This document shows positions 3,860-41,028 of a stretch of 64,000 nt of DNA, one piece after another. Source of the stretch: Clostridiaceae bacterium (GTDB taxonomy: Bacteria; Bacillota; Clostridia; Lachnospirales; Lachnospiraceae); the NCBI GenBank assembly GCA_902363735.1, contig CABJBA010000001.1, positions 868,001 through 932,000 of the forward strand, read 5' to 3'. Under the pieces are notes generated by a model. The model was not told the DNA's origin, did no database searches, and was given only the letters and a program-made list of their open reading frames with translations. A program made the position numbers and the translations under genes. The stretch's first letter is position 1, and each line of letters begins with the position of its first letter.

Positions 3860-3900
3860 AATACCTTCCTCCTTACAATTATGTAGTTTTTTGCATTAAT

Positions 3901-5152: not shown

Positions 5153-5230
5153 AGACTATCTTATTTTCCGGCATATCTTTTATTTTGCACACTGATATAA
5201 AATCTACTTTATTTTTTAGGATCATTAGTT

Positions 5231-9852: not shown

Positions 9853-9921
9853 GGACTTCTCCCTTCATTCGTCTGACCTTGCCCATATTTGATAATCAGG
9901 ACTTCCTAATACACTTAGATG

Positions 9922-13502: not shown

Positions 13503-13522
13503 ATCGCTTCCCCCTTTTATTT

Positions 13523-13651
13523 TTACCAGCTTTTTCCCAAGTATGTCTCACTTTGCAATAAAACTGTATTATGATATTCACGCTCATCCCCATACCATCT
13601 GAAAATAATATTCTTCTTATTAATAAAATCTCTTTCTGAGATATTTATTGG
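13523..13651 (-). pseudogene. Start-less 42-codon open frame, possible gene remnant
   Basis: In this frame a 42-residue stretch is open from just after a stop codon to TAA at 13525-13523. It reads like protein rather than random sequence (for example RWYGDEREYHNTVLLQSETY and then LGKSW), but it has no ATG or GTG, its only TTG is codon 32, and no ribosome-binding site precedes it. About 100 bases further upstream another frame contains a loosely similar VLL...TY segment, which hints at a decayed duplication. The rest of 13503-13762 is AT-rich and presumably holds the promoter of the exporter operon. I do not recognise the family. Confidence 0.3.
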
Positions 13652-13762
13652 TTATATTTTATATCAAAATGAATTATTTTTCCATCTTATATTTTTGTTC
13701 TCTTTCATAAATATAAGTACCTGATTCAATAATACTTCACCGTCCCACTTATATTAGAAAAC

Positions 13763-13799
13763 AAAGCCCCGGCAGAGCTTTATACTCTTCCAGGGCTTT
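13763..13799 (-). terminator. Intrinsic terminator after the FAD oxidoreductase gene
   Basis: Positions 13763-13777 pair with 13785-13799 (13 of 15 pairs, seven-base loop). The minus-strand continuation is TGTTTTCT. It sits 12 bases after the stop of the gene ending at 13811 and closes the long glycan operon. Confidence 0.75.
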
Positions 13800-13810
13800 A
13801 CTTTCTAATT

Positions 13811-15154: not shown

Positions 15155-15167
15155 GTTTCCTTTTCCT

Positions 15168-17147: not shown

Positions 17148-17159
17148 GTGATAGCCCCC

Positions 17160-18767: not shown

Positions 18768-18770
18768 CAA

Positions 18771-20591
18771 TCAATCCCCCCAATTCCTTTCCGGAAAAGT
18801 AACAATTGCCTTGGTCCACTGACCTGTTACACTTTCAAACTGAAGTCCGTAATCTTCTCCGAAAAACAGACGAAGTCTTTCATTTACATTATAAATCCCA
18901 TAACCCTCTGAACGGTCTGTTTCACCTTTTTTCAGAGCATCATTAAGAACCTTCAATTTATCTTCTGGAATGCCTGCTCCATTATCCCATACAATCAGTT
19001 TTAATATCTGCTCCTTTCCTGAACCCCACGATTCTTCATATATCCGTATCAACCCTGTTCCCTGCTTCTCTTTTATTCCGTGATAAATGGAATTCTCTGC
19101 CAAAGGCTGTAAAATCAACTTAATAACCCTGTAGTCCAGCCACTGCTCTTCTACATTAATCTGGTAATTCAGCCTTGAGTGATAGCGGATTCTCTGAATG
19201 TCCAGGTAGCTGGTTACGTGTTCAATTTCTTCCCTTAAGGTGACTACCTCAGCCCCTTTACTCAGGGAAATACGAAAAAATTTCCCTAGCGAATTTGACA
19301 GGATGCTAATTTCCTCTGCTCCCTGGTCCGCTGCCTGCCATGTTATGGCATTTAACGTGTTGTAAAGAAAGTGTGGATTAATCTGGGCCTGCAAAGCTCT
19401 TAATTCAGCCTTTCGCTTCTGCTTCTCCACTTCGGCTACATAATCCCTTTCCCGCTTTAACTCCTCAATGGTCTCTTCCTGCTTTACTACCAGACTTTGA
19501 ATTTCCCCGGTCATATAATTAAAACTTTTTGCCAGGCTCCCTACTTCATCTTTGTATGGATAGAAAAACCGTGTATTAAAGTTGCCTTTTTCAACCAGAC
19601 TCATACGCTTTTCCAGTTTTCTGAGAGAATTAGTCAGCTGATGGGACAACAGCGATATTGCAGCCACACCAATGAGAAATATAAATCCCATAGTTTCTAA
19701 AATTACATTTCTCAAACTTTGCAGGCTTCCAAGTAGGGTCTCCCTGGACTTCAGCCCCCAAATCTGCCAGCCATTTTCTGAAAGAACAGTGCTGGTTACC
19801 AGATAGGTCTTGCCATCATGCTGATAATCACCGGTAATCACCGCTCCTTCTCTTCCCCATTTATCTGCCAGTTTGATAAGTTCTCCAGAGTCAATGTCTT
19901 CTGAGCCTATAATTGTATTTCCTGCCTGATCCAGAATCAGGATCTTGTCAAAAAACTCATACTTTCCCTCTAACAAATGTTCCAGCTGATTTGTCTTTAG
20001 CTGAAGCACCAGATATAAGCTGCCTCCATATCCCTGAACACTGAACCTTCTCACACAAGGAATGATTTCATCAATATCTTGGAATATTTGATCTTCCTGA
20101 GGCGGAAACCACCGGATTGCTTTATCGGTTTCTTCCATATAGGATTGATAATACTCAGACTCTTTAAAATCAAACTCCCAGTTTCTTATTCTGACAAAAT
20201 TATCAAATTCACCTTTATCTGTATAAATATAAGAGGAGTGCAGGAGACTTTCACCGATCTCCAAATCCTTTAAAAAAGAAGAAACTGTCCCCATTGTCTT
20301 TACCAGATTAATGTCACTGGGATTATTTAAATAATCAACTATACTTACTACAAAGGTAAAATTGGTCAGCATTCCCTGTGATCTCTGTCTGATCACTCCA
20401 AGACGCATATCCAGAGTATCCACAAGCTGTACAAGCACGCTTTCTGAACTGACTCTGAAACTCTCTTCAATACCATGAGAAGTATATTGATAATAGGAAA
20501 CTCCACTGATTGCAGTGGTAAAAAAGTACATAATTCCAAATATCCAGATAATCTTACTTCGGAACTGAAGATTGTTAAAGAATCTTTTCAT
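18771..20591 (-). CDS. Sensor histidine kinase, YesM type
   Basis: This 606-residue membrane kinase has a first membrane helix near residues 12-32, an extracellular Cache-like sensing domain up to about 280, a second helix (ETMGFIFLIGVAAISLL) and a HAMP linker. A coiled coil leads to a His_kinase domain with the phosphoacceptor His407 in INPHFLYNTLN. The ATP-binding domain shows N-box LAENSIYHG and the DNGAGIP and GYGIYNVNERL boxes. I chose the ATG at 20591 rather than 20597 because AAGGA lies eight bases before it, but only two bases before the other. It is 91 bases downstream of a sugar ABC permease and adjacent to its response regulator, as in YesMN-type glycan-sensing systems. Confidence 0.93.
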   Translation of the reverse strand: MKRFFNNLQFRSKIIWIFGIMYFFTTAISGVSYYQYTSHGIEESFRVSSESVLVQLVDTLDMRLGVIRQRSQGMLTNFTFVVSIVDYLNNPSDINLVKTMGTVSSFLKDLEIGESLLHSSYIYTDKGEFDNFVRIRNWEFDFKESEYYQSYMEETDKAIRWFPPQEDQIFQDIDEIIPCVRRFSVQGYGGSLYLVLQLKTNQLEHLLEGKYEFFDKILILDQAGNTIIGSEDIDSGELIKLADKWGREGAVITGDYQHDGKTYLVTSTVLSENGWQIWGLKSRETLLGSLQSLRNVILETMGFIFLIGVAAISLLSHQLTNSLRKLEKRMSLVEKGNFNTRFFYPYKDEVGSLAKSFNYMTGEIQSLVVKQEETIEELKRERDYVAEVEKQKRKAELRALQAQINPHFLYNTLNAITWQAADQGAEEISILSNSLGKFFRISLSKGAEVVTLREEIEHVTSYLDIQRIRYHSRLNYQINVEEQWLDYRVIKLILQPLAENSIYHGIKEKQGTGLIRIYEESWGSGKEQILKLIVWDNGAGIPEDKLKVLNDALKKGETDRSEGYGIYNVNERLRLFFGEDYGLQFESVTGQWTKAIVTFPERNWGD

Positions 20592-26723: not shown

Positions 26724-27800
26724 CTACTCCTTTTTCTCAGCATCATATTTCAATACCATTGTCAGAAAAAATGCTGTCAAAAATCCAATTACGCAGCTTG
26801 TCACATACATCCAGAATCCTTTGCCCCAAAAAACAGGCAGTGTGATCAGACTGGGAAAGGCAAATGCCATGGCCTGGGCCCCGGAAAGCCCTGCTACTGC
26901 ACCGCCCGCTCCACCGCCAATGCATACCGCAATCATAGGCTTTTTCAACGGCAGGTTTACCCCAAACATAGCTGGTTCCGTCACCCCAAAACAGGCTGAA
27001 ACTACAGCTGATAAGCAGGTGGAGCGAAAACTTTTATCCTTGCTTTTTAAGCACACTGCAAAGGCAGCACCTGCCTGGGCAAAAACTGCCGGTCCGATTA
27101 AAGCCAGTATGGTATCAGACCCTTTTGCAGAAATATTATTCATTGCAACCAGCACAAGGCTCCAGTGAAATCCAAAAATCACCATGGGCTGAATCACTGC
27201 TCCCAAAATTCCTCCGGCGATGACAGGGCTGATTCTGTATACAAATTCATAGGCGGCGGCCAGCCCGTCTCCTATAACATTTCCAATTGGTCCAAACACA
27301 AACAATGTAACCAGACTCACTGTTACAACACAGATTAATGGTGCAAAAAAGCCTTTGACCAGGTCTGGCAATATTTTATACACCAGCCGTTCCACATAGG
27401 AAAGCAGGGCCACAGCAAGAATAATGGGAATTACACTGGAATGGTAGATAACAGCCTTCATAGGAATTCCTGCAAAGAGGATGCCGGTGCCTGCCTCAAA
27501 TAAATCCGTTAATGCCGGGTATAAAAGTACCCCTCCGATGACCATTGCTGTAAACGGATCGGAACCAAACTTCTTTGCTGAGGTAAATGCTAATATTATG
27601 GGGAGAAAGTAAAACAGGCTGTCTGCTATGGCATTTAGCACCACATAGGTTTCGCCTGCTTCTGGCAAAATATTTGTCGCAGTCAGAATTGCCAATACCC
27701 CTTTTAATATACCTGCTGCACTTAACAAATTAATAATCGGAAGAAATATCCCCGAAACTCCGTCAATGACAGCACCTATCATGGACTTTTTTTCTTTCAT
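26724..27800 (-). CDS. Orphan PTS EIIC membrane protein, glucose/beta-glucoside family
   Basis: This 358-residue polytopic protein matches the EIIC domain of glucose-superfamily phosphotransferase permeases. It has GIFLPIINLLSAAGILKG at the N terminus, FYFLPIILAFTSAKKF, and the conserved substrate-loop motif GVTEPAMFGVN near residue 270. EIIC forms the sugar channel. It normally works with a cysteine-phosphorylated EIIB and a EIIA, but neither is fused here nor encoded nearby. Either the partners lie elsewhere or the protein has another use. The ATG at 27800 has AGGAGAAGG upstream. It lies downstream of the 28059-29504 regulator on the same strand but is separated from it by a terminator at 27992-28034, so it probably has its own promoter. 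Confidence 0.88.
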   Translation of the reverse strand: MKEKKSMIGAVIDGVSGIFLPIINLLSAAGILKGVLAILTATNILPEAGETYVVLNAIADSLFYFLPIILAFTSAKKFGSDPFTAMVIGGVLLYPALTDLFEAGTGILFAGIPMKAVIYHSSVIPIILAVALLSYVERLVYKILPDLVKGFFAPLICVVTVSLVTLFVFGPIGNVIGDGLAAAYEFVYRISPVIAGGILGAVIQPMVIFGFHWSLVLVAMNNISAKGSDTILALIGPAVFAQAGAAFAVCLKSKDKSFRSTCLSAVVSACFGVTEPAMFGVNLPLKKPMIAVCIGGGAGGAVAGLSGAQAMAFAFPSLITLPVFWGKGFWMYVTSCVIGFLTAFFLTMVLKYDAEKKE

Positions 27801-27991
27801 AAACGCCTTCTCCTATCATAAGTATACTCGTCTGAAACTTACCCCGCCATTAAACACTGTATACTGCAAATACTACCTTTCTATTACCTTATATCATGAT
27901 ACCTCTTAATTTTGTCAATGTAAATACAAGATGGATTTTGGTCCTAAATTAGATTTGCAGGAACATTTACCGTTTATCACACAAAACTTAA

Positions 27992-28034
27992 GCCGCTGCT
28001 CACGGAGAAATCCTTCACCTGACCTTGCAGCGGC
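27992..28034 (-). terminator. Terminator after the regulator gene
   Basis: GCCGCTGC at 27992-27999 pairs with 28027-28034. The minus strand continues TTAAGTTTTG. It separates the regulator gene (ending 28059) from the EIIC gene. Confidence 0.6.
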
Positions 28035-28058
28035 CTGATTTAATCCTTATTCTATTAC

Positions 28059-29504
28059 CTACAAATGCAATTCCTCTGACTCTCCCGACATTTCAGAATC
28101 AGCAATAGCAATACTTCCAGACATCTCATCAAGATAATTTTCCCATAGCTCCAGACTGAAATCCATTAAAATCATATTATCTGCATCCAGTTCTTTTTTC
28201 AGAATATCATTGAAAATATCCGATTCAATACAATGAATTTTTTCAGATTTATATTTGCTGTCAATCATATAGATCATAGTAAAATCCTTGGAACAGAGGA
28301 TTGCTGCTTTGGGAAACTCACTGTTTACCACCCTGATTTTATCAGAACTTTGATCATTAATGAAAGTATTAAACCGGGTCAAATACGGAACCCTATCTTT
28401 AGGAAGAAAATCAATTGCACCTACAAGAGGAACAATTGCTTTACCTGTAGAGCAAAAACCAAGCATGGCATCAATCGTTACATAAAACCTCGTTTCCTTA
28501 TCCAGAATATTTTGAAAAAACAATAAAAGGCTTTTTTTAACAAATTCATCACTTTCCGCACGTTCCAATTCCTGCTCCGTAATCAGATAACCGATGGATA
28601 TAAAGTTATATACTGCATCAACCGGCATTTGCATTAACCTGGTGAAAAAGGAGGACTCGGATCTTAATGCGTCTCTGGCTTCTTTCCCATTATAACTTAT
28701 TTTTTTGGCCCCTTTTCTCATTAAAGAATTGAAAAATGAGGTCAAATACCCTTTATGAGTAATAAATGTCATAAGAGGAGTCCCATCAATCTGAAAGCTG
28801 AAAATCATAAGAAACTGTCCTTTTAAAAAGAAAAAGGTGCTGTTTATCTCCTTCTTGATTTTCCACAAAATTAAGTCCACATTTTTCTGACAATCCACAA
28901 TTGTAGAAATAGAATTAATATCATAATTTTTATCTGCATCAGAAGAATGAAGTCCGATGAATTGATTAAGTAAAATATCCTTCTGCTTCTTAGAGGTCAG
29001 AATTCTAATTCTGGACAAAATACCAGCATACATCTTATCAAACCAGGGCAGTGTGCTGTAAAATTCCATAGAAGCACCTTCCTTCCTGGTAAGGTAGTCT
29101 GACGCAAATACACAGAACATATTCAATATGGTCTTTTTTCCAAGAAAGCTGGATTCCCGTTCAGGATATCCCAGGCTCCCGTTGTTCTCTTCCTCAAAAT
29201 CCTTATCAAACACATATTCAATAGCACAGGCAAGAAATACCTCCAGTTCATACTCCGAACTAAAATCATATAATACCGGAAAAATGCGTTCAAATTTTAA
29301 ATAACAAAAGTCACTGTATAAAACTTTAGCAAAATAACCAGCAGCTAACTTACTGAATACTCTCTTTTCTTTAAAAAACGGCAGCCTTCCTCCTTTTAAG
29401 ATTTTGCTTAATCCGCTTGGCGTCATATTCATACTAAGTGCAAAATCTGTCTTTGATACCTGAGAAATATAGATAAGTTCCTCTAATAATGTGCCCGTTT
29501 TCAT
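28059..29504 (-). CDS. Uncharacterised HTH regulator divergent from the LPKTG surface proteins
   Basis: I do not recognise the family of this 481-residue protein. Residues 5-45 look like an XRE-type helix-turn-helix: an LLEELIYISQVS helix, then DFALSMNMTPSGLSKILKGG with the typical hydrophobic pattern and a Gly turn after the recognition helix. The remaining 430 residues are soluble, Phe/Ile/Lys-rich and without signal peptide, membrane helix or known sensor motif, and end in an acidic tail. The ATG at 29504 has a GGAG site nine bases upstream. The gene is transcribed away from the first giant surface protein; their promoters face each other across 255 bases, and the predicted -10 of this gene overlaps a box repeated before both surface-protein genes. 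I infer that it regulates itself and both surface proteins, in the manner of stand-alone virulence regulators such as Mga, though no homology to Mga is visible. Confidence 0.7.
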   Translation of the reverse strand: MKTGTLLEELIYISQVSKTDFALSMNMTPSGLSKILKGGRLPFFKEKRVFSKLAAGYFAKVLYSDFCYLKFERIFPVLYDFSSEYELEVFLACAIEYVFDKDFEEENNGSLGYPERESSFLGKKTILNMFCVFASDYLTRKEGASMEFYSTLPWFDKMYAGILSRIRILTSKKQKDILLNQFIGLHSSDADKNYDINSISTIVDCQKNVDLILWKIKKEINSTFFFLKGQFLMIFSFQIDGTPLMTFITHKGYLTSFFNSLMRKGAKKISYNGKEARDALRSESSFFTRLMQMPVDAVYNFISIGYLITEQELERAESDEFVKKSLLLFFQNILDKETRFYVTIDAMLGFCSTGKAIVPLVGAIDFLPKDRVPYLTRFNTFINDQSSDKIRVVNSEFPKAAILCSKDFTMIYMIDSKYKSEKIHCIESDIFNDILKKELDADNMILMDFSLELWENYLDEMSGSIAIADSEMSGESEELHL

Positions 29505-29538
29505 GCTTTTTTCTCCATTCTTTCTCTTTACGGAAATT

Positions 29539-29567
29539 ATTGTAACATCTTTTTCAATTCTTGTCTA
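29539..29567 (-). promoter_or_regulatory. Promoter of the divergent HTH regulator gene
   Basis: On the minus strand TAGACA (29567-29562) and TACAAT (29544-29539) are 17 bases apart, each a 5/6 match. The -10 overlaps the first TGTAAC box (29541-29546), so a protein bound there would block this promoter. Confidence 0.6.
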
Positions 29568-29579
29568 TTTTGATGTAAC
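29541..29579 (+). promoter_or_regulatory. Twin TGTAAC boxes, candidate operator upstream of the first surface protein
   Basis: TGTAAC followed by a T-rich tract occurs at 29541 and again at 29574, 33 bases apart (about three helical turns). The same pair with the same spacing lies before the second surface-protein gene (34701 and 34734). Relative to the predicted start of transcription the boxes sit near -90 and -57, typical positions for an activator. Confidence 0.6.
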
Positions 29580-29592
29580 TTTTTTTCTCCAA

Positions 29593-29633
29593 TTTCAAGC
29601 ACAAAAGATAGTAATCCTATATAATCGCTATAG
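29593..29633 (+). promoter_or_regulatory. Promoter of the first surface-protein gene
   Basis: A perfect TATAAT lies at 29620-29625, overlapped by the inverted repeat CTATA-N7-TATAG (29617-29633). TTTCAAGC at 29593-29600 is conserved at the same position before the second gene. No good -35 exists at 17 bases, which fits an activator-dependent promoter. The leader is about 130 bases long. Confidence 0.65.
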
Positions 29634-29690
29634 AATTCTTTATCATAGGTAAAGTCTTATGTCAATAAAGAATTACTTCAATATAAAAAA

Positions 29691-29738
29691 CAAGGCCAAA
29701 CTTAGGAAAAATAAATTATAGTACGGAAAAAGGTCTTG
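29691..29738 (+). promoter_or_regulatory. Leader hairpin before the Shine-Dalgarno of the first surface protein
   Basis: CAAGGCC (29691-29697) pairs with GGTCTTG (29732-29738), one pair being G-U, around a 34-base loop. The matching hairpin in the second gene pairs CAAAGCC with GGCTTTG, so one G-C pair has become A-U with pairing kept. It ends six bases before AAAGGAGG and may affect translation or message stability. Confidence 0.55.
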
Positions 29739-29759
29739 TAAACAAAGGAGGAATGAGAT

Positions 29760-32700
29760 TTGAAAAGAAAAAAACAAAGGAGATTTATAAGCTGGATGCT
29801 GGCTATGCTGCTTGTAATGAATGTGTTTCTTCCTGCCATCAATGTACGGGCAGAATCAGATACATTGGAAACAGGCGTACTTATAGTCAATACAGAAGAA
29901 ACCCCGGCTCCTGACCAACCGGAAGAAACTCCGGTTCCTGATCCATCGGAAGAAACTCCGGCTCCTGATCCTACAGAGGATACAGATATCATCGAGGAAA
30001 CAGAAGCCACCACAGAGGAGGTTTCTGTAGCCTCTCCCTCTGTTCCTGATAAAGTTATTGCGGATAAGAAACAGAAAGCTTCAGTTGCAGAAGTATTCAA
30101 TTCAAAAACTGTAACTGAACTTCTAAAACCTTTTTCTGCCAAAGTAATTCAAAATAATGCAGATGTCACAGAAAGTGCGGATATTGACTATAAAAAACCT
30201 CTTTCTGTTGAAATTTCATTTGATGTACCAGTATTAGGTGATTGGCTGGAAGATCCCGGAAATCCTGACCTTTATGTCAGCAAAGGGGATATTGCAACCT
30301 TTAAACTGGGAAATGGCTTTACTATTCTTGCCCCCACCTCCTTTGAATTAAATCATAAAGTAGGCCAACAAAGCTATAAAATAGGAACCTTAACTTTAGC
30401 AAAAAATTCTTTAAGCGGAGAAATGGAAGCCACTGTTGAGTTTAATGGTGACGAGGATGTTTTTAACGGTAATGAAGAGGTTGGAATACATGGTGTTACT
30501 GCAAAATTTACGGCAAATCTTCAATATGACAACAGTAATGATAACGGTAATGGAAAAGAAGACTCTGTAACTATTTTGGAGAAAACATACAAGGTAGAAG
30601 TTCCCCCTCTGGCAGTAGAGTATGAAAGGAGTAAGACAGCTTCCATCGATGCTGCAAAAAAAGAAATTGAATGGACCGTGAAGATCCGGGCATACAAAGC
30701 GACTACTCCTGAGAGCCCTGTCGATCTGTATGAGTATGTATTCTCCGATGACTTAAATACTGTAGGGGAGTTTGTACCAGGATCCGTAACTGTGAACACG
30801 GTTTCTGTGGGGGATGGATTGGTGTATGATTCTGGTAACGAAACCCTCTCCTATACCTTTCCATCAAACTCTACTGCAGAACAAACCATTGTCTTCCGGA
30901 CAAAGATTTCAGACAAGGATTTTTATTCAACTACCAGCAAGGAATTTGTTAATAACGCAACAATTAAGAAGGGAGAGGAAGAGGTAACAGTTCAAGGAAA
31001 GAAAACTTATAATCCCCCCCAATGGATAACCAAGTCCGGTAAAGAAAATCAAACCGGTGAGAACTATGATCCTCTAAACCGTACCATTACATGGTCTATT
31101 GTCATAGACACCAATGGAACTAGCCTGCCTGATGCAGTAGTTACGGATATTCTTAAACAGAATATGACCTTTAAAAGTGCAAAGCTGGAAAAATGGGATG
31201 GCAGTTCTTACTCTAATGCAGAGAAAACCTGGAACGAACCGGCTCCAGAAAATAGCAAATATGAACTGGGGAATATCTCCGGCAAATACCTTCTTACCAT
31301 CGTAGCAACTGTTCCCAACGATACAGGAGATATTACAGGTGATATTATAACGTATAATAACACTGCTGTTCTATCATGGAGCACTTATCCAGGAACCGGT
31401 GAAGGCCTGGAAGCCAAATCACCAGGAGTTGGCGTAGGTTATAATGCAATTTCCAAAAATGGAGCAGTAAAAGATGCTAAAAAGCAGCTCATTACATGGA
31501 AAATCAAGGTGGATACCAAAGGCCAGTCTTTTCCGAATCTGAAAGCATATGATCTTCTGGTTTATGGAGACAGCATTAATTTAAATGAATTCACTGATGA
31601 ACTGATTGGTATCGACACAAGCCACCTCCACCCACAGTATAATCAGAAATATGCGGACGGCTTAACCTCAACTAGCACTAATTTTAACTTAACAAAAAAG
31701 ACTCTCACCAAAAATGGGGTCGATGTTGCGGATCTATTAATATTTGAAGGCCTTAACAATCCCGGCCTGACCGATATCCAATTTGATGCCAAGGTAACAA
31801 ACCCCGACTTCTTTGCAGCAAACACTTCCAAAACTTTATGGAATACTGCCTCTCTTATCAGCGGCAACAGAGAGATAAATACAGCATCAGATGATGTCAG
31901 CTATGTCAGTCAGCTTCTAGATAAAGAAATGCTGAAACGGGGTTCTAATGCAAGCACCCTTATTGGTGCCAATAATAAGACAAGTGACATCAGTGAAGGA
32001 TTTGACTACATAGATAAATCTGCAGTTTTCCGGTTGAGTGTCAATGCAGACGGTCTTGACTGGACATCACTGAAAAATAAAGTGGATGAATCCTTAGGTG
32101 ATGTAACGATAACTGATACACTGCCAGATGACTGGGAATTTGTGAAATTTGATGATAACAGTGACTACTATATTTTTAACGGCGACGGCAATACAGAAAC
32201 TCCCACATCAGTAGTGGCTAAGGGTACTGCTCTAAATCCCGAGGATGTGACCGGCTTAAACGCCAAAATTAATGGACAATCTGCGGAATTTACCTTTTCG
32301 TCCTTAAAAACTCCATATGTGATTTTGCTAAAAGCAAGACCAACAGACGCTGCTTTAAAAACCTATTTTAGTTCCAATCAAGATACCGATCGAAAAAACG
32401 TACTGAGTCTGACAACAGAACAATGGGCCAAAGGCATTAAAGATGAACAATCTGTCAGAATAAGCAGCAAGATTATTGATAAGCTGACTCCCAATCGAAA
32501 ATCAGACGCCTTGATTGAATGGAAGGTGTTTTACAATCCATACAGCATGGATATTTCCCTTTCTGACACACCAGAAATGAAAATAGAGGATAAAATGCCA
32601 GAGGGAATGGAGTTAAAAGATGGCAGTGTCATAGTATACGAAATGCCTCTTAAGCCTGACGGCAGCCTTGATCTTACAAAGGGTACTGAAGTCCAAGACT

Positions 32701-34586
32701 CAGGAAGCTATATCGAATATTTGAATACCCAGCGCCTGTTAACTTTCCGCATTCCTGATAAGACCAAAGCCTACCAGCTGATCTACGAAACAATTATTAC
32801 CTCTGAAACAGCTGGCGAAGGATTAACGAATAAAGTTACGCTGATTGGAAGCAAGGCTAATGGTCAGGAAACAAGCAATGTTTATAACGTACAAAGTTCA
32901 GATGCCTCTGCCAGCTTAAGCTTCGGGGGATATATAAGGATTAACAAAACAGGATTAGGTGATGTTGGCCTCGATGGAGCAACATTTGAATTATTGAAAA
33001 CCGGAGAAAATGTTCCATTTCGGACTGCAACCAGTAAAAACGGCGGAAAAATACTTATGAAAGTTCTTCCTGCCGGTGAATATACTCTTATCGAAACATC
33101 TGCTCCTGCAGGCTATGTGGTATCCAAAACGACTTATAAAATAGAGATTGTTGCAGATCCCATGGGTGGCCCTCCTTCTACATGGATAAACGGAAGTAAA
33201 GCCAATGATTTAACCATTAAAAATAACACTGATGGAACTGTAGGAAGCCTGATCATCAAAAAAACCGTAGAAGGAAGCAGTGATAAAACTAGTGATGCCT
33301 TTAATTTTACAGTAACTCTAAGTGCTTCGGGAAATTATCCCTACGAAAAAAGTGATGGAACAAACGGAATCATTACAAGCGGTGATACGATTTCTTTAAA
33401 ACATGATCAGACAATCACTATATTTGATCTTCCTGTTGCAACGACCTATGAAATAGAGGAGGAAGATCTTACTTCCAAAGGATACGTAACTCCTGCTCCT
33501 CTCCTGTCTGGTACTATTACAGCTGCTGCAGCTGAGGCTCACTTCACCAACTACCAGCCAGGAAGTCTGACCATTAAAAAGCAGGTTCTCTTAGGGGATA
33601 CTAATAAGCCGTTTGAATTTACCGTAAGCTTTACAAAAGATGAAAAAGAAGATACAAATACATATGTCTACACTGGAAACGGAGGTGCTTCTGGCGGAAC
33701 TATTAAGAGCGGAGATACTCTCTCACTTTCCGACGGACAGTCCATCACTATTTCAGGTATTGGAAAGGATACCGGGTATAACATTACGGAATCAGACTAT
33801 TCTTCTGAAGGATATGAAAAACCTACTATTTCAGGTAATCCTTCTGGTAAGATATCAGCAGGTGAAGATTCTTCTGTTGCTTTTAAAAACTCCCAATCAC
33901 TCCTTGGAGGTCTGATTATCAGCAAGACGGTTATAGGAAACGGGGGAAATAAAACGAAAAAATTCACTTTTACAGTTACATTTGACACTGATGGAACCTA
34001 CGATTATGTTGGAAAGAGGGTTCCAAATGGTAAGATTAAAAGCGGTGATAAAATTGAACTTGCTGATGGACAAAGTATCTCTATCAGCGGACTGCTTCAT
34101 GGGACCCAATACACCGTTACTGAAGAGGATTATTCTTCTGATGGATATAAAACAGTATTCTCTGGCAATGAAGGGGCTATTTCTAAAGACTTAACTGCAA
34201 AAGCCGAGTTTACTAATTCAAGATATTCTTCTGGCGGCGGGAATGGAGGCGGCGGCGGAAAAACTCCGAAGCCTACTACCCCAACCCAGCCAGTTACACC
34301 AACCCCAACTCCGGAACCAGTAACTCCGGGTGAAATACCGCAAGGCTATCTGCCAGGCCCTGATGGCAATTACTACACACCCCAGCAGATATATGATATC
34401 TTTGGGGAAATCCCTCTCGGTTTTATGGTGGCACCAAACGGACAGCTTGTTCCTCTTGGCGGACTTCCAAAGACAGGAGATGATATGTTCCGCAACGTAG
34501 CTATTTTCGGACTGCTTTCCATTTCAGCACTTTTGGGCATGGCAGTTTCCGCCAATAATCTGCGAAAGAAACGTTCAGGCAAATAA
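29760..34586 (+). CDS. Giant LPKTG cell-wall-anchored surface protein with SpaA/Cna-B-type repeats (paralogue 1)
   Basis: This 1608-residue protein has a Sec signal peptide (basic start, hydrophobic core, cleavage near VRA-ES at residue 31). Then come an acidic Pro/Glu/Thr segment with three nine-residue repeats, five beta-rich adhesion-like modules (about 270-1050; each opens with a Lys-x-Gly-type strand and an aromatic-Trp strand such as ITWSIVID), and a SpaA-type domain (about 1056-1155) with RINKTG and LIETSAPAGY, where Lys and Glu could form an isopeptide bond. Three related Cna-B-like domains of the DUF7601/DUF5979 kind follow (about 1160-1488), then a Gly/Pro/Thr linker, LPKTG at 1569-1573, a hydrophobic helix and a basic tail. 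It is expected to be linked to the wall by a sortase encoded elsewhere. The start is TTG at 29760, with AAAGGAGG eight bases upstream; it aligns with the ATG start of paralogue 2. The ligand is unknown. Confidence 0.92.
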   Translation: MKRKKQRRFISWMLAMLLVMNVFLPAINVRAESDTLETGVLIVNTEETPAPDQPEETPVPDPSEETPAPDPTEDTDIIEETEATTEEVSVASPSVPDKVIADKKQKASVAEVFNSKTVTELLKPFSAKVIQNNADVTESADIDYKKPLSVEISFDVPVLGDWLEDPGNPDLYVSKGDIATFKLGNGFTILAPTSFELNHKVGQQSYKIGTLTLAKNSLSGEMEATVEFNGDEDVFNGNEEVGIHGVTAKFTANLQYDNSNDNGNGKEDSVTILEKTYKVEVPPLAVEYERSKTASIDAAKKEIEWTVKIRAYKATTPESPVDLYEYVFSDDLNTVGEFVPGSVTVNTVSVGDGLVYDSGNETLSYTFPSNSTAEQTIVFRTKISDKDFYSTTSKEFVNNATIKKGEEEVTVQGKKTYNPPQWITKSGKENQTGENYDPLNRTITWSIVIDTNGTSLPDAVVTDILKQNMTFKSAKLEKWDGSSYSNAEKTWNEPAPENSKYELGNISGKYLLTIVATVPNDTGDITGDIITYNNTAVLSWSTYPGTGEGLEAKSPGVGVGYNAISKNGAVKDAKKQLITWKIKVDTKGQSFPNLKAYDLLVYGDSINLNEFTDELIGIDTSHLHPQYNQKYADGLTSTSTNFNLTKKTLTKNGVDVADLLIFEGLNNPGLTDIQFDAKVTNPDFFAANTSKTLWNTASLISGNREINTASDDVSYVSQLLDKEMLKRGSNASTLIGANNKTSDISEGFDYIDKSAVFRLSVNADGLDWTSLKNKVDESLGDVTITDTLPDDWEFVKFDDNSDYYIFNGDGNTETPTSVVAKGTALNPEDVTGLNAKINGQSAEFTFSSLKTPYVILLKARPTDAALKTYFSSNQDTDRKNVLSLTTEQWAKGIKDEQSVRISSKIIDKLTPNRKSDALIEWKVFYNPYSMDISLSDTPEMKIEDKMPEGMELKDGSVIVYEMPLKPDGSLDLTKGTEVQDSGSYIEYLNTQRLLTFRIPDKTKAYQLIYETIITSETAGEGLTNKVTLIGSKANGQETSNVYNVQSSDASASLSFGGYIRINKTGLGDVGLDGATFELLKTGENVPFRTATSKNGGKILMKVLPAGEYTLIETSAPAGYVVSKTTYKIEIVADPMGGPPSTWINGSKANDLTIKNNTDGTVGSLIIKKTVEGSSDKTSDAFNFTVTLSASGNYPYEKSDGTNGIITSGDTISLKHDQTITIFDLPVATTYEIEEEDLTSKGYVTPAPLLSGTITAAAAEAHFTNYQPGSLTIKKQVLLGDTNKPFEFTVSFTKDEKEDTNTYVYTGNGGASGGTIKSGDTLSLSDGQSITISGIGKDTGYNITESDYSSEGYEKPTISGNPSGKISAGEDSSVAFKNSQSLLGGLIISKTVIGNGGNKTKKFTFTVTFDTDGTYDYVGKRVPNGKIKSGDKIELADGQSISISGLLHGTQYTVTEEDYSSDGYKTVFSGNEGAISKDLTAKAEFTNSRYSSGGGNGGGGGKTPKPTTPTQPVTPTPTPEPVTPGEIPQGYLPGPDGNYYTPQQIYDIFGEIPLGFMVAPNGQLVPLGGLPKTGDDMFRNVAIFGLLSISALLGMAVSANNLRKKRSGK
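29895..29975 (+). repeat. Three tandem 27-base units in the surface-protein gene
   Basis: Units start at 29895, 29922 and 29949, each encoding Glu-Glu-Thr-Pro-(Ala/Val)-Pro-Asp-x-x, followed by a partial fourth unit. They lie just after the signal peptide. In-frame units of this kind can expand or contract by recombination or slippage. Confidence 0.85.
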
Positions 34587-34616
34587 TTACTGAATACTAT
34601 TTTTATATGAATCTTA

Positions 34617-34650
34617 AGAGGAGGAAAACCATTAATTGGTTTTCCTTCTT
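34617..34650 (+). terminator. Terminator after the first surface-protein gene
   Basis: AGGAAAACCA at 34622-34631 pairs with 34637-34646, and the stem extends outward to 34617-34650 with wobble pairs. It lies 31 bases past the stop. The rest of the gap up to 34917 holds the regulatory region of the second surface-protein gene. Confidence 0.75.
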
Positions 34651-34700
34651 ACAATTTAACTTACTCTTATCTTCTATCTTTTGCTTATTTAGAAAATTCT

Positions 34701-34739
34701 GGTAACGCTTTTTTTCTTTTCGTGCAAATTTCTTGTAAC
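34701..34739 (+). promoter_or_regulatory. Twin GGTAAC/TGTAAC boxes, candidate operator upstream of the second surface protein
   Basis: GGTAAC at 34701 and TGTAAC at 34734 are 33 bases apart, exactly as before the first surface-protein gene. The second box is 46 bases from the TATAAT in both cases, so the two upstream regions align without gaps. Confidence 0.6.
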
Positions 34740-34752
34740 ATTTCTTTCTTTT

Positions 34753-34793
34753 TTTCAAGCGCAAGGCATATAATCCCTATATAATCAGTATAG
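34753..34793 (+). promoter_or_regulatory. Promoter of the second surface-protein gene
   Basis: TTTCAAGC (34753-34760), TATAAT (34780-34785) and the overlapping inverted repeat CTATA-N7-TATAG (34777-34793) occur in the same order and spacing as before the first gene. A second TATAAT at 34769-34774 is not conserved. Confidence 0.65.
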
Positions 34794-34851
34794 AATTCAA
34801 TTTGCATAGATTTAAAAGTCTTATGCAAAAGAATTACTTTATTATAGAAAG

Positions 34852-34897
34852 CAAAGCCTGAATCTTAAGGCTGAGGTAACGTGCATGAGTGGCTTTG
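34852..34897 (+). promoter_or_regulatory. Leader hairpin before the Shine-Dalgarno of the second surface protein
   Basis: CAAAGCC (34852-34858) pairs fully with GGCTTTG (34891-34897), and the stem extends four more pairs outward with one G-U. It matches the hairpin at 29691-29738 in position, and one base pair differs by a compensatory change. Confidence 0.55.
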
Positions 34898-34917
34898 TTT
34901 AAAAAGGAGGAAATAAT

Positions 34918-37900
34918 ATGAAAGGAAAAAAACAAAAACAAAAACGATTTATGAGCTGGTTTTTAGTCATGCTGCTGACATTAAATGTGCTATTTCCAGC
35001 TACTGCCCTTGCAGAAGTACCTGAAACTTCCCATGAAGTGACAGCTGCGATTAATGATGAAACAGATCAGAGTACAGCTACAAAAACAGAAGATACCGGA
35101 GATAAAAAGGAAAGTTTGAATGAAGAAACTCAAACTCCTTCAGAAAACGAAAACGATCCAAAAGAGTCTGAACCTGCCAATGATGACAGCGAACAGATTC
35201 CTGAAATACCTGAAACCACCAACGATAACAGCGAACAAATCTCCGAAGAATCCGAGACTGTAAATAACGACAACGAAAAAAATACTGAGCAGACAGATAA
35301 CCAGCAAGGGGCTGCACCCACAGATCCAGCCCTTCCAATACCACTGCTGCAATTTGAATTACAGACAGATGAAAATGTGGCAGATAAACTTGAATATACA
35401 GCATCCGTAAAAGTGGACGGAATCATTTTCCAGCCTGATGCAACAATGGAAATCAAAGATGGAGAAGTGATCGATATTGAATTTAATTTTACCAGTATCC
35501 CTGTCTCATATAAGCAAATAGGAGATTTTGTAAATCCTGGAGATAAAGCTAAAATCATATTAGGAACAGGCTTGAAAGCTGTAACTGGTAAAATCCCATT
35601 AATAGTAGAAGATACTTCTATTAAAATTGGTGATGCTGAACTAAAGGAAGAAAATGGGCAGGTAGTTGCCTATATTGATTTTAACTGGAACTGGGAGGAG
35701 GTCAATAAAAATGCCTATTTCCTTACAGCAGGCTTCAAAGTAGGATTGAAATTTGATAAAGACAGCGCAGGTTCCGGTGAAAATGAAGAAAAAATTATTA
35801 CCATTTTAGATAATGAATATTTTGTTAAAGAACCAATTGAATTTAGATTAACAAAAACGGGAACCCCAAGCATAGCTGAAAAAGCTGTCATTTGGGAAGT
35901 CACCATTGAATCAACCCCAGAAGGGGCAGATTTAGGCGGATTTAAATTCTCAGATGATTTGTCATCGACTGGAAAATACATTTTGGATTCATTGAATGTG
36001 GGAGGACAAAGTTTGCCTCCAGATGAGGAGTCCACAAATGACTCTCTTATTTATACTTTTCCTGAAGGAAAAACGGCCCCACAGACCATACATTTTTCCA
36101 CTGAAATTCCAGATGATAAGTTTAACTCAAACACGGAAGAATCTATTTCAAATCAAGCAAAGCTTAAGGCAACAGCCAGTGATGCAACAAGATCAAACAA
36201 AGCGGAAGTGAAGCTTCCTGGTAAGAGATGGATTACAAAGAACGGAGTTCCCAGTAAAGACTTCGGCAGTTATAACCCTGATAATCGAAAGGATCGTAAA
36301 ATTACATGGACCATCGTTGCCAATGAAAACGGCTATTTATTAGAAAATGTTACGATCAAAGATATAATGGGACCTAACTCAGGAAACAAAAAGCAAACAG
36401 TTATATCCGTAAGTTACACAATCGGAAACACTACTGTCGCTCTTAATGACGATGAGCTTAAAAATTTCAACTCTACGGGAGGATCATTATCTTATAAAAA
36501 AGATGATCCCAACAGTGTATACATAGAAGATTTTGAGAGCCTAGATAAGAAAGTTACAATAACCATTGTAACCAGCATACCAGATGACCCCGATGGTGTT
36601 TTTGAAGAAACCACCTATACCAACAGAGCCACCATTACTTGGGACGGAAACACGAAAGAGACAGGTACCGGAAATATCCCAATAGTTATTGGTTACCCTT
36701 CTCTCAATAAGAGTGGAGTACAGAAAGAAGACCGCAAGATTGAATGGACCGTAAACTTTTCTCCCGAGGATCAGGGCGATGAGTTTTCTGATGAGCTCAA
36801 GATTTACGACCTGTTAGTCCATGGGGGCTCTGAAATCAGTGACCTTACCCAATTGGATGGCTGGCCAGCTGGAATTGAACCCGACCAGATTACACAGCAA
36901 TTTAATCAGAAATTTGTCGACTGGATTCCTTCTACTCCTTCAAATGCCCAACGCATTGAACTAAAAAACTCAGACCAGGAAACAGTTGCTGATTTGTTGA
37001 TCGTACCAGTCAGCCACACCAAAAAAACAACTTTTAAATTCCTATCACAGATCGTCGATTACAAAATATATGCCAGTAACGGTACAATAGCTGTACACAA
37101 TACAGCCACATTATTCAACCAAAATAAAAAACTGGCTGATACAAAAGGTACTGTAAACTATAACAGCAACATATTAAGGAAAGGGATTCTCCCATTTGAT
37201 TCAAATGAAAATCCCACTAAAATTGGTAACAGCTCTAATGGTTTCAATCATGAAACCAGGACAGCAATTTTCCGCTTAGATATTAATGAAGATATCCTGG
37301 ATTTCAGCCAGTTAAGCGGAGGCAATATCACTGTAACAGATACACTCCCTAATGGTTGGGTATTTAATAGAACCTTTAACAACAATAAGGGGTATAAAAT
37401 ATTTGAAGGCAGTGACTTTAATACAGAAGCAGAAGCTGATATGGCAGCATTGTTTGACCCTGACAGCAATTCCGCTTCAAAAGCTTCATTCACCTTTAAG
37501 GATCTTAATAAGCATTATGTCATTCTCGTACAGGCGAAGCTGACAGAGGAAGCTTATGAAAAGCTTTTAAAGAGTAACTCAGACACTGTTACCGTGAATA
37601 ATGAGGCAACATTATTTATTGAAAATTGGGACCTTACCACTCCACCCGTCAGACAATCCGTTACCGTCAAAACCAAGCTGCTGGATAAAAAAATAGTAAC
37701 CCAGCCAAGCGATTCAAGCCGGTCCCTGACATGGCAGGTCAAATACCAGCCCTTTGACATCAGGCTAAAAGATCTGGAAGATTATAAAAATGTGGAAATT
37801 ATTGATAAACTTCAGGAAGGCCTTGAATTACCAATCAGCAATACAGGCCAGCCCATTTGGGAGAATATTACCATCACCAAGATGGATATGGCAGGAAGTG

Positions 37901-39429
37901 GTGCATATCAGGACCAGACCGGAGAACATGCAACGCTTAATCCTAAGGATCATATTACCTATGATGCCGCAGAACGCACCTTAACCTTTAAGGTGCCTGA
38001 CAGCGACCAGGCCTACCGTTTAACCTATGTAACATATATCACTGTGGATAGCGGAAAGGTTAAAAACTCAGTTACCCTGAAAGGAACTAATAAAAACGTA
38101 ACAAATACAGAGGCGGAATATGGAGTCGAATACAAAAAGGGCTGGGCTAATATCCATCTGGGCGGATATATAATAATCACCAAGATAGACGGCTTCTCCC
38201 AGGAAACTCTTGAGGGAGCGGAATTCTCACTGATTTCAGAAGAAAACGGAAAGGTAATCCGTCTGGGTGAAACAGACATAAACGGCATCTATACCATATC
38301 CGCAATACCGCCAGGTGTCTATACCTTAGTTGAAACCAATCCACCTGCCGGCGGCTATACACCTGCTCTCAAGACTTACCATGTAACCGTTACGAAAGGA
38401 AACGGCGGCAGTGTTACTACTGTTATTGACGAAAAAGAAAGCAATGAGATCACCGTCGAAAACTTCAAATCAGATAATTTCGGAAAACTGACCTTTAAAA
38501 AGACGGTAGCCGGTAAAGATGGAGAAACAGAAAGGGCATTTAGTTTTAAGGTAACTCTAAGTGCAGAAGGCACATACAATTACATCGGAACAGGCATTCC
38601 AAACGGAACCATAAAAGCCGGAGACAGCATTTCTCTAAAGCATGGTCAGGGAATTACAATTTATGGGCTTCCGAAAAATACAGAATATTCAATAACTGAG
38701 GAAGACTACAGCGGTTTTGGATATACGAAGACTGTCACTGGTAATCCCAATGGCAAGATTATAGCCGACAGCAGCGCAGAAGGCCAAACTTACGAAGTGG
38801 TTTTTACCAATACAAGAACCCTTCCGGGAAGTCTGGTTATCAGCAAAACTGTTCTTGGAACCGGAGCTGACAAAACAAAGAAATTTGAATTTACAGTAAC
38901 CTTTAACGCAGAAGGCAGATATCCTTACAGTGCTCCGGGAGTTTTAGAGGGAGCAACCATTGCCAGCGGTGATAAGATCACTCTTGCAGATGGAGAAAGC
39001 GCCACCATAACAGGTTTACCTGACGGCACTGCCTATAAAATTGCGGAAACTGATTACACCTCACAAAGATACACCACTGTAAGCACTAATACAGAGGGTA
39101 ATATAGAAACCAAGTCAAGTATTACTGCCGCATTTACCAACACATACAAAAGACCCTCAAGCGGCGGAGGCGGGGGCGGAGGTAATACTCCATCAGGCCC
39201 CAGACCTGGAACTCCATTGGTTACTATAGAAGGAAATGTACCAACCGGAAACATAGGTGAACCCCAGAAAGAACTGGTTGACATTGAAGGTGATATTCCA
39301 TTAACAGGCTTACCAAAGACCGGTGACAGCATGTCCGGTATTTATGCAGCATTGATATTACTCATCTTCTCCGCCGGAATGGGAATATTCACTTTCTCAA
39401 TTCTGTTTGGAAAACAGGAAACAGAATAA
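34918..39429 (+). CDS. Giant LPKTG cell-wall-anchored surface protein with SpaA/Cna-B-type repeats (paralogue 2)
   Basis: This 1503-residue paralogue of the preceding gene has the same plan. A signal peptide is cleaved near ALA-EV (residue 32). An acidic Glu/Asn/Thr-rich segment with SEQI-type repeats follows (about 50-140), then five adhesion-like modules collinear with those of paralogue 1 (for example RWITKNG, then ITWTIVANENG), and a SpaA-type domain (about 1081-1185) with TLVETNPPAGGY. It then has two Cna-B-like DUF7601/DUF5979-type domains instead of three (about 1187-1412), a Gly-rich linker, LPKTG at 1465-1469, a hydrophobic helix and a short charged tail. The ATG at 34918 has AAAAAGGAGG upstream. 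Sequence identity to paralogue 1 is moderate, so the duplication is old, yet the promoter and leader architecture is conserved. It is expected to be sortase-anchored; the ligand is unknown. Confidence 0.92.
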   Translation: MKGKKQKQKRFMSWFLVMLLTLNVLFPATALAEVPETSHEVTAAINDETDQSTATKTEDTGDKKESLNEETQTPSENENDPKESEPANDDSEQIPEIPETTNDNSEQISEESETVNNDNEKNTEQTDNQQGAAPTDPALPIPLLQFELQTDENVADKLEYTASVKVDGIIFQPDATMEIKDGEVIDIEFNFTSIPVSYKQIGDFVNPGDKAKIILGTGLKAVTGKIPLIVEDTSIKIGDAELKEENGQVVAYIDFNWNWEEVNKNAYFLTAGFKVGLKFDKDSAGSGENEEKIITILDNEYFVKEPIEFRLTKTGTPSIAEKAVIWEVTIESTPEGADLGGFKFSDDLSSTGKYILDSLNVGGQSLPPDEESTNDSLIYTFPEGKTAPQTIHFSTEIPDDKFNSNTEESISNQAKLKATASDATRSNKAEVKLPGKRWITKNGVPSKDFGSYNPDNRKDRKITWTIVANENGYLLENVTIKDIMGPNSGNKKQTVISVSYTIGNTTVALNDDELKNFNSTGGSLSYKKDDPNSVYIEDFESLDKKVTITIVTSIPDDPDGVFEETTYTNRATITWDGNTKETGTGNIPIVIGYPSLNKSGVQKEDRKIEWTVNFSPEDQGDEFSDELKIYDLLVHGGSEISDLTQLDGWPAGIEPDQITQQFNQKFVDWIPSTPSNAQRIELKNSDQETVADLLIVPVSHTKKTTFKFLSQIVDYKIYASNGTIAVHNTATLFNQNKKLADTKGTVNYNSNILRKGILPFDSNENPTKIGNSSNGFNHETRTAIFRLDINEDILDFSQLSGGNITVTDTLPNGWVFNRTFNNNKGYKIFEGSDFNTEAEADMAALFDPDSNSASKASFTFKDLNKHYVILVQAKLTEEAYEKLLKSNSDTVTVNNEATLFIENWDLTTPPVRQSVTVKTKLLDKKIVTQPSDSSRSLTWQVKYQPFDIRLKDLEDYKNVEIIDKLQEGLELPISNTGQPIWENITITKMDMAGSGAYQDQTGEHATLNPKDHITYDAAERTLTFKVPDSDQAYRLTYVTYITVDSGKVKNSVTLKGTNKNVTNTEAEYGVEYKKGWANIHLGGYIIITKIDGFSQETLEGAEFSLISEENGKVIRLGETDINGIYTISAIPPGVYTLVETNPPAGGYTPALKTYHVTVTKGNGGSVTTVIDEKESNEITVENFKSDNFGKLTFKKTVAGKDGETERAFSFKVTLSAEGTYNYIGTGIPNGTIKAGDSISLKHGQGITIYGLPKNTEYSITEEDYSGFGYTKTVTGNPNGKIIADSSAEGQTYEVVFTNTRTLPGSLVISKTVLGTGADKTKKFEFTVTFNAEGRYPYSAPGVLEGATIASGDKITLADGESATITGLPDGTAYKIAETDYTSQRYTTVSTNTEGNIETKSSITAAFTNTYKRPSSGGGGGGGNTPSGPRPGTPLVTIEGNVPTGNIGEPQKELVDIEGDIPLTGLPKTGDSMSGIYAALILLIFSAGMGIFTFSILFGKQETE

Positions 39430-39451
39430 CATACATTGGTAATACACCAGG

Positions 39452-39482
39452 TTCAGGCGAAAGATTTTCCCTTTCGCCTGAA
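39452..39482 (+). terminator. Terminator after the second surface-protein gene
   Basis: Positions 39452-39463 pair perfectly with 39471-39482 (12 pairs, seven-base loop), followed by TTTATT. It lies 23 bases after the stop. Confidence 0.85.
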
Positions 39483-39581
39483 TTTATTCCATCTGTACAC
39501 TTAAATATAAAATTTATATAAAAATTTTCATTATATTTCTCTTCAAACATTAAACTTTTTGTGAACATTATAAAATTCTTA

Positions 39582-39610
39582 TTGAAGAAAATCGACAAAA
39601 CAGGTATAAT
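39582..39610 (+). promoter_or_regulatory. SigA-type promoter of the NCS2 permease gene
   Basis: TTGAAG (39582-39587) and TATAAT (39605-39610) are separated by 17 bases. The 56-base leader that follows is too short for a purine riboswitch aptamer plus expression platform, and no aptamer core is seen. Confidence 0.75.
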
Positions 39611-39666
39611 TAAAACATATTAAAGGGCGGCCGTCTTTTAAAATAAAATGTAAAAGGAGTTACATC

Positions 39667-41028
39667 ATGGAGAAGTTTTTCAAACTTAAGGAAAATGGGA
39701 CGAATGTGCCCACGGAAATCATGGCGGGAATTACCACGTTTTTCGCAATGGGGTATATTATCATCGTAAACCCCAACACCCTTAGTCAGGCAGGCATGGA
39801 ATGGGGAGCCGTGTTCTTAGCCACTATCATCTCGGCAATCATTGGTACTTTAGTTATGGCTCTTGTAGCTAACGTTCCTTATGCACAGGCGCCGGGTATG
39901 GGACTGAATGCATTTTTTGTTTACACTGTTTGCTTTACTCTGAAATTCACATGGCAACAGGCTTTATCAATGGTTTTCATCTGCGGTATGTTAAACATTT
40001 TGATTACTGTAACCAAGATTCGTAAGTATATTATTAAAGCAATTCCACACAGCCTGCAGAATGCAATCAGCGGCGGTATCGGTATCTTTATTGCTTACAT
40101 AGGTTTCCTTAATGTAGGAGCGATTAATTTTGGTGCAGGAGTTCCTGCTATGACTGATATTACAACAAAAGCTCTGGTAGTCTTCATTATAGGTCTTGCA
40201 TTGATTATTGTAATGACAGTAAAGAATGTAAAAGGAAGTATTCTTCTCAGTATTATTATTACAACAATCATCGGAATTCCTATGGGCGTTACCCAGGTGG
40301 GTGACAGCGTAAGCTTTGGGGAAGCTTTGTCTGTACTTCCAACTACCTTTGGTGTTATCTTTACCTCTGAAGGACTGATTTCTTTATTTAACGATATGGG
40401 GAAACTTCCTCTCGTATTAATTACTGTTTTCTCTTTCAGCTTGTCTGATACTTTCGATACCATCGGAACCTTTATCGGAACAGGCAGAAGAAGCGGAATC
40501 TTCAGTGCAGAAGACGAAGCAGCATTGGAGAATGGAAAAGGATTCTCTTCCAAGATGGATAAGGCATTATTTGCCGATGCAACAGCAACTTCTATTGGAG
40601 CTATTATCGGTACTTCCAACACAACTACCTACGTGGAGAGTGCTGCCGGAATCGAGGCAGGCGGACGTACAGGACTTACCTCCGTTGTTACAGCAATTTG
40701 TTTTGCTCTCAGTGCATTCCTGGCTGGTTTTGTAAGCGCCATTCCTTCTGTAGCTACAGCACCTGCTTTGATTATCGTAGGATGTATGATGATGTCTTCA
40801 TTTGCTGAAATTGAGTGGACCAACTTAGAGGAAGCAATTCCAGCATTCTTTGCAGGAATATTTATGGCTCTTTGCTACAGCATTTCCTACGGTATTGCTA
40901 CTTCCTTCATCTTCTACTGCGTTGTTAAGATTGCAAAGAAGAAAACAAAAGATTTAAGTCCAATTCTTATCGGTTCCAGCATCTTGTTCATGCTGAACTT
41001 CTTATTACAGGCAATACTTCCTAAATAA
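39667..41028 (+). CDS. NCS2-family purine permease (AzgA-like)
   Basis: This 453-residue membrane protein with about 13-14 helices belongs to the AzgA branch of nucleobase:cation symporters, which import adenine, guanine or hypoxanthine. Signature segments are GITTFFAMGYIIIVNPNTL near the N terminus, APGMGLNAFFVYTV (about 78-92), DTFDTIGTFIGTGRRSG, and GTSNTTTYVESAAGIEAGGR, whose Glu is typical of the substrate site. The ATG at 39667 has AAAAGGAG upstream. It stands alone between two terminators. Purine-salvage genes at the right end of the window (adenine deaminase) could use the imported base, but the two are not linked in one operon. Confidence 0.95.
   Translation: MEKFFKLKENGTNVPTEIMAGITTFFAMGYIIIVNPNTLSQAGMEWGAVFLATIISAIIGTLVMALVANVPYAQAPGMGLNAFFVYTVCFTLKFTWQQALSMVFICGMLNILITVTKIRKYIIKAIPHSLQNAISGGIGIFIAYIGFLNVGAINFGAGVPAMTDITTKALVVFIIGLALIIVMTVKNVKGSILLSIIITTIIGIPMGVTQVGDSVSFGEALSVLPTTFGVIFTSEGLISLFNDMGKLPLVLITVFSFSLSDTFDTIGTFIGTGRRSGIFSAEDEAALENGKGFSSKMDKALFADATATSIGAIIGTSNTTTYVESAAGIEAGGRTGLTSVVTAICFALSAFLAGFVSAIPSVATAPALIIVGCMMMSSFAEIEWTNLEEAIPAFFAGIFMALCYSISYGIATSFIFYCVVKIAKKKTKDLSPILIGSSILFMLNFLLQAILPK

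Follow-up and report, generated by a model that had tools for sequence, protein, structure and literature searches.

What controls the two giant LPXTG proteins that are encoded one behind the other in a 64,000-nucleotide stretch of a Clostridiaceae bacterium genome (contig CABJBA010000001.1, positions 868,001 to 932,000; here called the window), and why does a single divergent gene of no named family stand in front of them? The answer that we favour, with some confidence, is that this gene encodes a stand-alone regulator of a new family, which activates each adhesin promoter and tunes its own, at an accessory adhesin locus with a recombining outer part. The three genes lie as described in an initial annotation made from the sequence, with a 481-residue helix-turn-helix (HTH) protein divergent from a 1608-residue LPKTG protein and a 1503-residue LPKTG protein next:

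28059..29504, reverse strand: regulator gene, 481 residues, from the list of open reading frames (ORFs); XRE/HigA-like HTH and PLD-like folds
29760..34586, forward strand: S1, 1608 residues; signal peptide, five adhesion-like modules, SpaA, three DUF7601 domains, LPKTG anchor
34918..39429, forward strand: S2, 1503 residues; signal peptide, five adhesion-like modules, SpaA, two DUF7601 domains, LPKTG anchor

The tie between the regulator and its neighbours comes from comparative genomics. Regulator homologues were found at 37 loci, all of which were examined: 25 from a genome collection, nine from the genus of genome G006 (taken here as the Lacrimispora group), one from its family and two from a phylum sample. 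At 30 of the 37 an S1/S2-like gene lies next to the regulator and divergent from it (21 of 25 in the collection, eight of nine in the G006 genus, one of the two in genome G819), with only a weak match and a masked stretch at L004 and with the surface gene in several ORFs at L004, L011 and L017. It is adjacent in another orientation at two loci, on the same strand at L019 and convergent, in three ORFs, in G293. Four loci have no surface gene: L002, which holds a remnant of the gene start only, L016, L116 (genome G421) and L128, the second G819 copy. With L018 left out as the same stretch as L017 (851 identical upstream bases), 32 of 36 distinct loci hold the pair, with regulators down to 36% identity; some of these loci are close relatives (L120/L121, L122/L125) and are not independent events. 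The initial annotation had named this survey as a way in which its proposal of one regulator for both surface proteins might fail, and the homologues mostly do have an adjacent surface gene. The pairing occurs in scattered Firmicutes.

Among 25 genomes of the G006 genus the regulator is found in 13 and an S1-like gene in 12, and in each of these 12 the two genes lie no more than about 1.3 kb apart. In a sample of 397 genomes from the G006 family each gene is found in five and both in four, with at most four regulator and two S1-like candidates scored per genome, so that some may have been missed. The remaining regulator is that of a surface-less Robinsoniella (G015); the remaining S1-like gene lies on a 5,977-base contig of the draft genome G042, with TTCAAGC in front and no regulator found there. 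The module is rare, at five of 397 genomes in the family sample and three of 398 in the phylum sample, centre genomes included.

Several individual loci are of note. L116 has an emptied site at about 9791-9986, where a solute-binding-protein gene (438 residues, 93% identical to that of L011) adjoins the regulator. In G819 two regulator copies lie about 60 kb apart, L129 with surface gene, sortase and full promoter motif and L128 without a surface gene. L019, from an Anaerolineaceae-labelled draft (Chloroflexota), carries at 1-5900 the end of a surface gene, a class B sortase and two tandem regulators, all on one strand, with no TTCAAG upstream of either regulator; its presence in such a draft reflects either transfer or contamination.

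What, then, would the regulator act on? The control regions of the window carry the following elements:

29539..29567, reverse strand: putative regulator promoter (-35 TAGACA at 29567-29562, 17-nt spacer, -10 TACAAT at 29544-29539)
29542..29546, forward strand: box A (GTAAC) of the S1 promoter, overlapping the regulator's putative -10
29575..29579, forward strand: box B (GTAAC) of the S1 promoter
29593..29600, forward strand: TTTCAAGC element of the S1 promoter, at about -38
29620..29625, forward strand: -10 element TATAAT of S1
34702..34706, forward strand: box A (GTAAC) of the S2 promoter
34735..34739, forward strand: box B (GTAAC) of the S2 promoter
34753..34760, forward strand: TTTCAAGC element of the S2 promoter
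34780..34785, forward strand: -10 element TATAAT of S2

The S1 promoter (P1) and the S2 promoter (P2) both have GTAAC boxes at -52 and -19 relative to TTCAAG and TATAAT at N20, giving TTTCAAGC-N19-TATAAT in each, and neither has a good -35. Across the 64 kb, TTTCAAGC-N18..20-TAYRMT matches at P1 and P2 and nowhere else, against a mean of 0.00 in 100 shuffles, while TTTCAAGC alone is not rare there (seven matches, 4.65 expected). P2, which is divergent to no gene, keeps the boxes, TTTCAAGC and the -10 and is missing TGTCTA, the regulator's putative -35 in P1. The likeness that had been claimed for the two control regions holds throughout, with identical box spacing, the same TATAAT, a hairpin predicted in each leader and one box, box A, overlapping the putative TACAAT of the regulator itself.

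The same signature recurs in the relatives. Thirty surface promoters were counted, comprising P1, P2, 21 from loci of the genome collection and seven later ones; the TTCAAG motif was noticed on the first 23, and the other seven were obtained afterwards. TTCAAG is present in all 30 and TTCAAGC in 28, and, with the -10 sought over N15-N23 and ties resolved towards N20, the best -10 lies at N20 in 29 and at N21 in one. It is mostly TATAAT, TACAAT or TATACT, four Paenibacillus ones being poorer (TATGCT, TATGAT, TAAGCT). Beyond these 30, and also found after the motif, TTCAAGC occurs at L129 (N21), L130 (N20) and L136 (N20, TATTAT); upstream of the convergent surface gene in G293 it occurs with no good -10 at N20. 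The GTAAC boxes are general in the Lacrimispora group only.

In a genome-wide search of 24 genomes a stricter pattern gives 48 matches, against 13 for a reversed control, with 17 of the 48 at the regulator locus; the pattern misses the genome's own site in seven. In eight of the 24 (G004, G006, G010, G011, G017, G021, G022 and G024) the own site is the sole match, which favours a dedicated factor. A check for a wider regulon, covering 30 of the 48 matches, placed 14 at the regulator locus and 16 elsewhere, nine of the latter inside ORFs of at least 100 residues and seven not, and none of the 16 with GTAAC upstream. TTCAAGC is kept at three of the four loci without a surface gene: L016, L002 (with an altered -10) and L128 (which has no -10). 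The element therefore goes with the regulator and not with the surface gene alone. At the fourth, L116, TAGACA-N17-TACAAT is still there and TTCAAG is gone.

Two further observations concern the promoter region. In Robinsoniella (L124/L016) a TTTCAAGC-N19-TATGAT promoter (motif at L124:3934, reverse strand) lies ahead of a desulfoferrodoxin gene, with no surface gene, possibly a promoter captured by another gene. L119 (G431) and L011 (G010) carry degenerate extra pieces of regulator, which at L119 lie between the regulator and the surface gene, together with doubled box ladders (GTAAC/GTTAC at -125, -92, -52 and -19), signs of repeated rearrangement of the locus.

The regulator itself belongs to a small unnamed family that, by fold, joins an XRE-type HTH to a PLD-fold domain without the catalytic motif, and probably has a second PLD repeat in its C-terminal half:

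Regulator protein, by fold comparison: HTH, residues ~1-105; PLD-fold domain, ~110-270; probable second PLD-like repeat, ~272-450

The N-terminal domain has the XRE/HigA-like DNA-binding fold, and the C-terminal part a PLD-like fold as in the archaeal regulators TrmB and TrmBL2. In the best Foldseek row the alignment extends over both halves (382 columns, E 7.7e-5), but with a template-modelling (TM) score of 0.22; similarity to the PLD fold is weak in residues 272-450, and a profile comparison between the two halves matched only 14 residues, which were shared by design. The fold of residues 110-270, and weakly that of 272-450, is common to the PLD superfamily (Nuc/NucT, PLD3/4, vaccinia F13), but the HKD motif (HxKxxxxD) was not seen, by eye, at the presumed equivalent strands of 23 aligned members. 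The TrmB likeness is one of effector fold; the HTH here is HigA/XRE-like and none of the Pfam matches of 27 members is to a TrmB sequence model (winged HTH or TrmB C-terminal). Sequence searches gave no Pfam match above the cut-off and no NCBIfam match, only chance-level matches, to CBL, in a PDB profile search, and none among plasmid and phage records; a Pfam match to 'Reticulon' (E 0.0047, below the cut-off) was dismissed as chance. The description of the protein as one of unrecognised family, with some 430 C-terminal residues to be searched by fold, thus stands for named families and gives way for the fold, where those residues do have relatives. The family comprises about 140 protein clusters whose names, where given, are 'hypothetical' or 'uncharacterized', apart from one 'transcriptional regulator'. 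At title and abstract level, with most subscription journals outside coverage, the literature yielded no description of the family or locus. On its other side the regulator is flanked by a phosphotransferase system (PTS) EIIC gene (window 26724-27800, reverse strand), with an 81% identical gene on the same side at L011, a common flank.

These features suggest how the locus may work. The regulator would bind the shared boxes and the TTTCAAGC element and so activate a weak promoter of unusual spacing (TTCAAG-N20-TATAAT, with no proper -35) ahead of each giant LPXTG adhesin. Activation is favoured because there is no good -35, the spacer is 20 nt, the element is fixed at about -38 and the boxes lie farther upstream. 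The regulator may also repress or tune its own divergent promoter, the single observation in favour being that box A covers its putative -10; of the earlier proposal that one regulator coordinates both surface proteins and itself, the first part thus gains from the comparative linkage and the second stays with that overlap. TrmB senses sugars, and by analogy the sensor half of the regulator probably reads a small cytoplasmic ligand. A more specific version, to which we give slightly less than even weight, is that an XRE HTH with two dead PLD domains as ligand sensor drives a dedicated TTCAAG-N20-TATAAT promoter ahead of giant isopeptide adhesins, the locus being an exchange cassette in which regulator, promoter, signal peptide and anchor form a constant frame around an adhesive ectodomain traded among relatives, with two alleles possible under one switch.

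Could the regulator instead be a repressor? Sitting on the boxes, on TTTCAAGC or on an inverted repeat in the leader, it would block RNA polymerase until released by a ligand. The last of these sites weighs against activation:

29634..29674, forward strand: inverted repeat (hairpin) of the S1 leader, from folding and comparison of relatives
34794..34835, forward strand: inverted repeat (hairpin) of the S2 leader, from folding and comparison of relatives

In P1 and P2, and likewise in Lacrimispora-group relatives, some 8 nt separate the -10 from the start of the repeat, a position at which a repressor could be seated; moreover, TTTCAAGC coincides in part with the -35 region, as box A does with the -10 of the regulator itself, and TrmB-type regulators include repressors. 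The repeat varies in sequence between relatives, however, with pairing mostly kept, as would be expected of an RNA hairpin more than of a site for a protein, and we prefer to see it as a 5' RNA stem. Hairpins are predicted for S1 and S2 (z -2.5 and -1.6), and in seven leaders four of 12 predicted pairs show two-sided changes, although covariation is modest (term -0.33); single-sequence folds give z from -3.4 to -1.4, with that of L119 lacking the stem. A search of 27800-39800 against Rfam had no match at E 1 and lends the hairpin no support as a known RNA element. Given also that the poor -35, the long spacer and an element held rigidly in all 30 promoters are usual where transcription depends on an activator, we consider repression unlikely, though it is the alternative that fares best.

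A general or alternative sigma factor that reads TTCAAG-N20-TATAAT, with the regulator's presence a by-product of joint inheritance, seems to us improbable. The overlap of the element with the -35 region would suit it, as would the S1-like gene with the element in the draft genome lacking a detected regulator and the retention of the element before another gene in Robinsoniella. A general sigma factor would not, however, predict a pattern restricted to the own promoter, as in those eight genomes, and the upstream boxes kept in P2 too, and TTCAAGC at three regulator loci that have no surface gene, also speak against it. That the regulator mainly controls something else and merely sits beside a mobile adhesin cassette is very improbable, for the four loci without a surface gene stand against the 32 with the pair kept across widely diverged regulators, and two of the four look like losses (the gene-start remnant at L002 and the gene adjoining the regulator at L116).

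The targets of the proposed activator are wall-anchored surface proteins of LPXTG type, with signal peptides read by eye and C-termini in which LPKTG is followed by a hydrophobic stretch and a charged or polar tail:

34464..34478, forward strand: LPKTG sorting motif of S1
39310..39324, forward strand: LPKTG sorting motif of S2

S1 starts with a TTG codon behind an AGGAGG site. Pfam finds one SpaA domain in each protein and CnaB-type DUF7601 domains, three of them in S1 and two in S2, while Collagen_bind is confined to S1; this agrees with the shared plan proposed earlier, in which the five repeated modules are a by-eye reading from a recurring 'xIxWxVxI'-type strand. DUF7601 is counted among isopeptide-bond domain families in a published list (PMC12617251). 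PDB matches of S1 and S2 include the T18.1 major pilin, a collagen adhesion protein and ancillary protein 1. The two proteins share SpaA and DUF7601 with isopeptide-stabilised LPXTG adhesins and pilins (ancillary protein 1, the T-antigen backbone, collagen adhesins) but differ in their long N-terminal five-module tract, which is variable between species.

Are S1 and S2 recent copies of one gene? Their N-terminal parts (residues about 40-1050) are only 31% identical, and S2, unlike S1, groups with surface proteins of G423 and G431 (SH-aLRT 100, in a quick tree with that support measure only), on which grounds recent tandem duplication was ruled out. The earlier term paralogues holds for the collinear domain plan, not in the sense of recent duplicates. 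In the Lacrimispora set the ectodomain is a mosaic relative to its flanks. The L119 and L120 proteins are 94% identical in the signal peptide and 90% in the anchor, with ectodomain segments at 24-38%, and their DNA is 88-93% identical through the promoter and start, 39-62% in the middle and 77-88% near the gene end. L117 and L120 have regulators at 81% and ectodomains at 30-41%, whereas L117 and L119 have regulators at 67% and ectodomains at 65-74%; because these last two are alike in the ectodomain, recombination is preferred over fast divergence of the middle alone. From these comparisons the ectodomain appears to be exchanged by recombination between relatives. The outer part of the adhesin would be swapped, with the promoter, signal peptide and anchor mostly remaining beside the regulator, and this genome would carry a pair of distinct adhesin alleles, each behind a promoter copy of its own.

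The absence of a sortase, which had been part of the initial description, is true of the window as searched with eight sortases of relatives (a distant one could be missed) but is lineage-specific. At 13 loci the surface gene has a sortase gene as a neighbour, namely 12 of the 25 in the collection (L001, L005, L008, L013, L014, L015, L019, L020, L021, L022, L024 and L025) and L129, while the same queries, with the same limit, found none at L116-L125, L128, L130, L135 and L136. For all eight adjacent sortases compared with NCBIfam a class B model is best, seven above the cut-off and that of L014 below it. Relatives have, as a rule, one surface gene per regulator locus, and the window locus lacks the dedicated sortase with several pilin genes of a sortase-assembled pilus locus. 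At L010 (Scatolibacter, 12283-19234) the other flank of the regulator holds another gene with a sortase domain, accompanied by two genes of LPXTG type (540 and 1434 residues), in a pilus-operon-like arrangement.

How does this arrangement compare with known ones? In Streptococcus pyogenes, rofA/nra and cpa are divergently oriented, and the loci described here similarly have a stand-alone regulator gene that shares its control region with an adhesin gene. Two papers on the FCT locus (PMC7900414, PMC2565503) describe an intergenic region shared by the RofA/Nra regulator gene and the collagen-binding-type cpa, autoregulation by RofA and Nra, a class B or C sortase, isopeptide-stabilised pilins and a recombination hotspot. 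In contrast to RofA and Nra, which are of the RALP family, the regulator here has a PLD-like fold, and none of 27 members matched an HTH_Mga or PRD-type Pfam model at E 1 or better. There is, moreover, one giant protein per promoter and no backbone pilin operon. The best reading, by analogy, is that the locus works like the RofA/Nra-cpa arrangement with an unrelated regulator, and is not a member of it.

The novelty is in the class of regulator, in the rigidity of its promoter and in adhesin alleles being exchanged under one regulator. For the family there is now a function that can be tested, together with a partner gene and a candidate for the operator, and the rigidity of the promoter signature makes the regulator's target predictable from sequence. 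If the proposed mechanism is true, a PLD-fold sensor would be added to the bacterial XRE repertoire, and these loci would represent a second, unrelated solution to the streptococcal FCT design of one regulator beside one variable adhesin.

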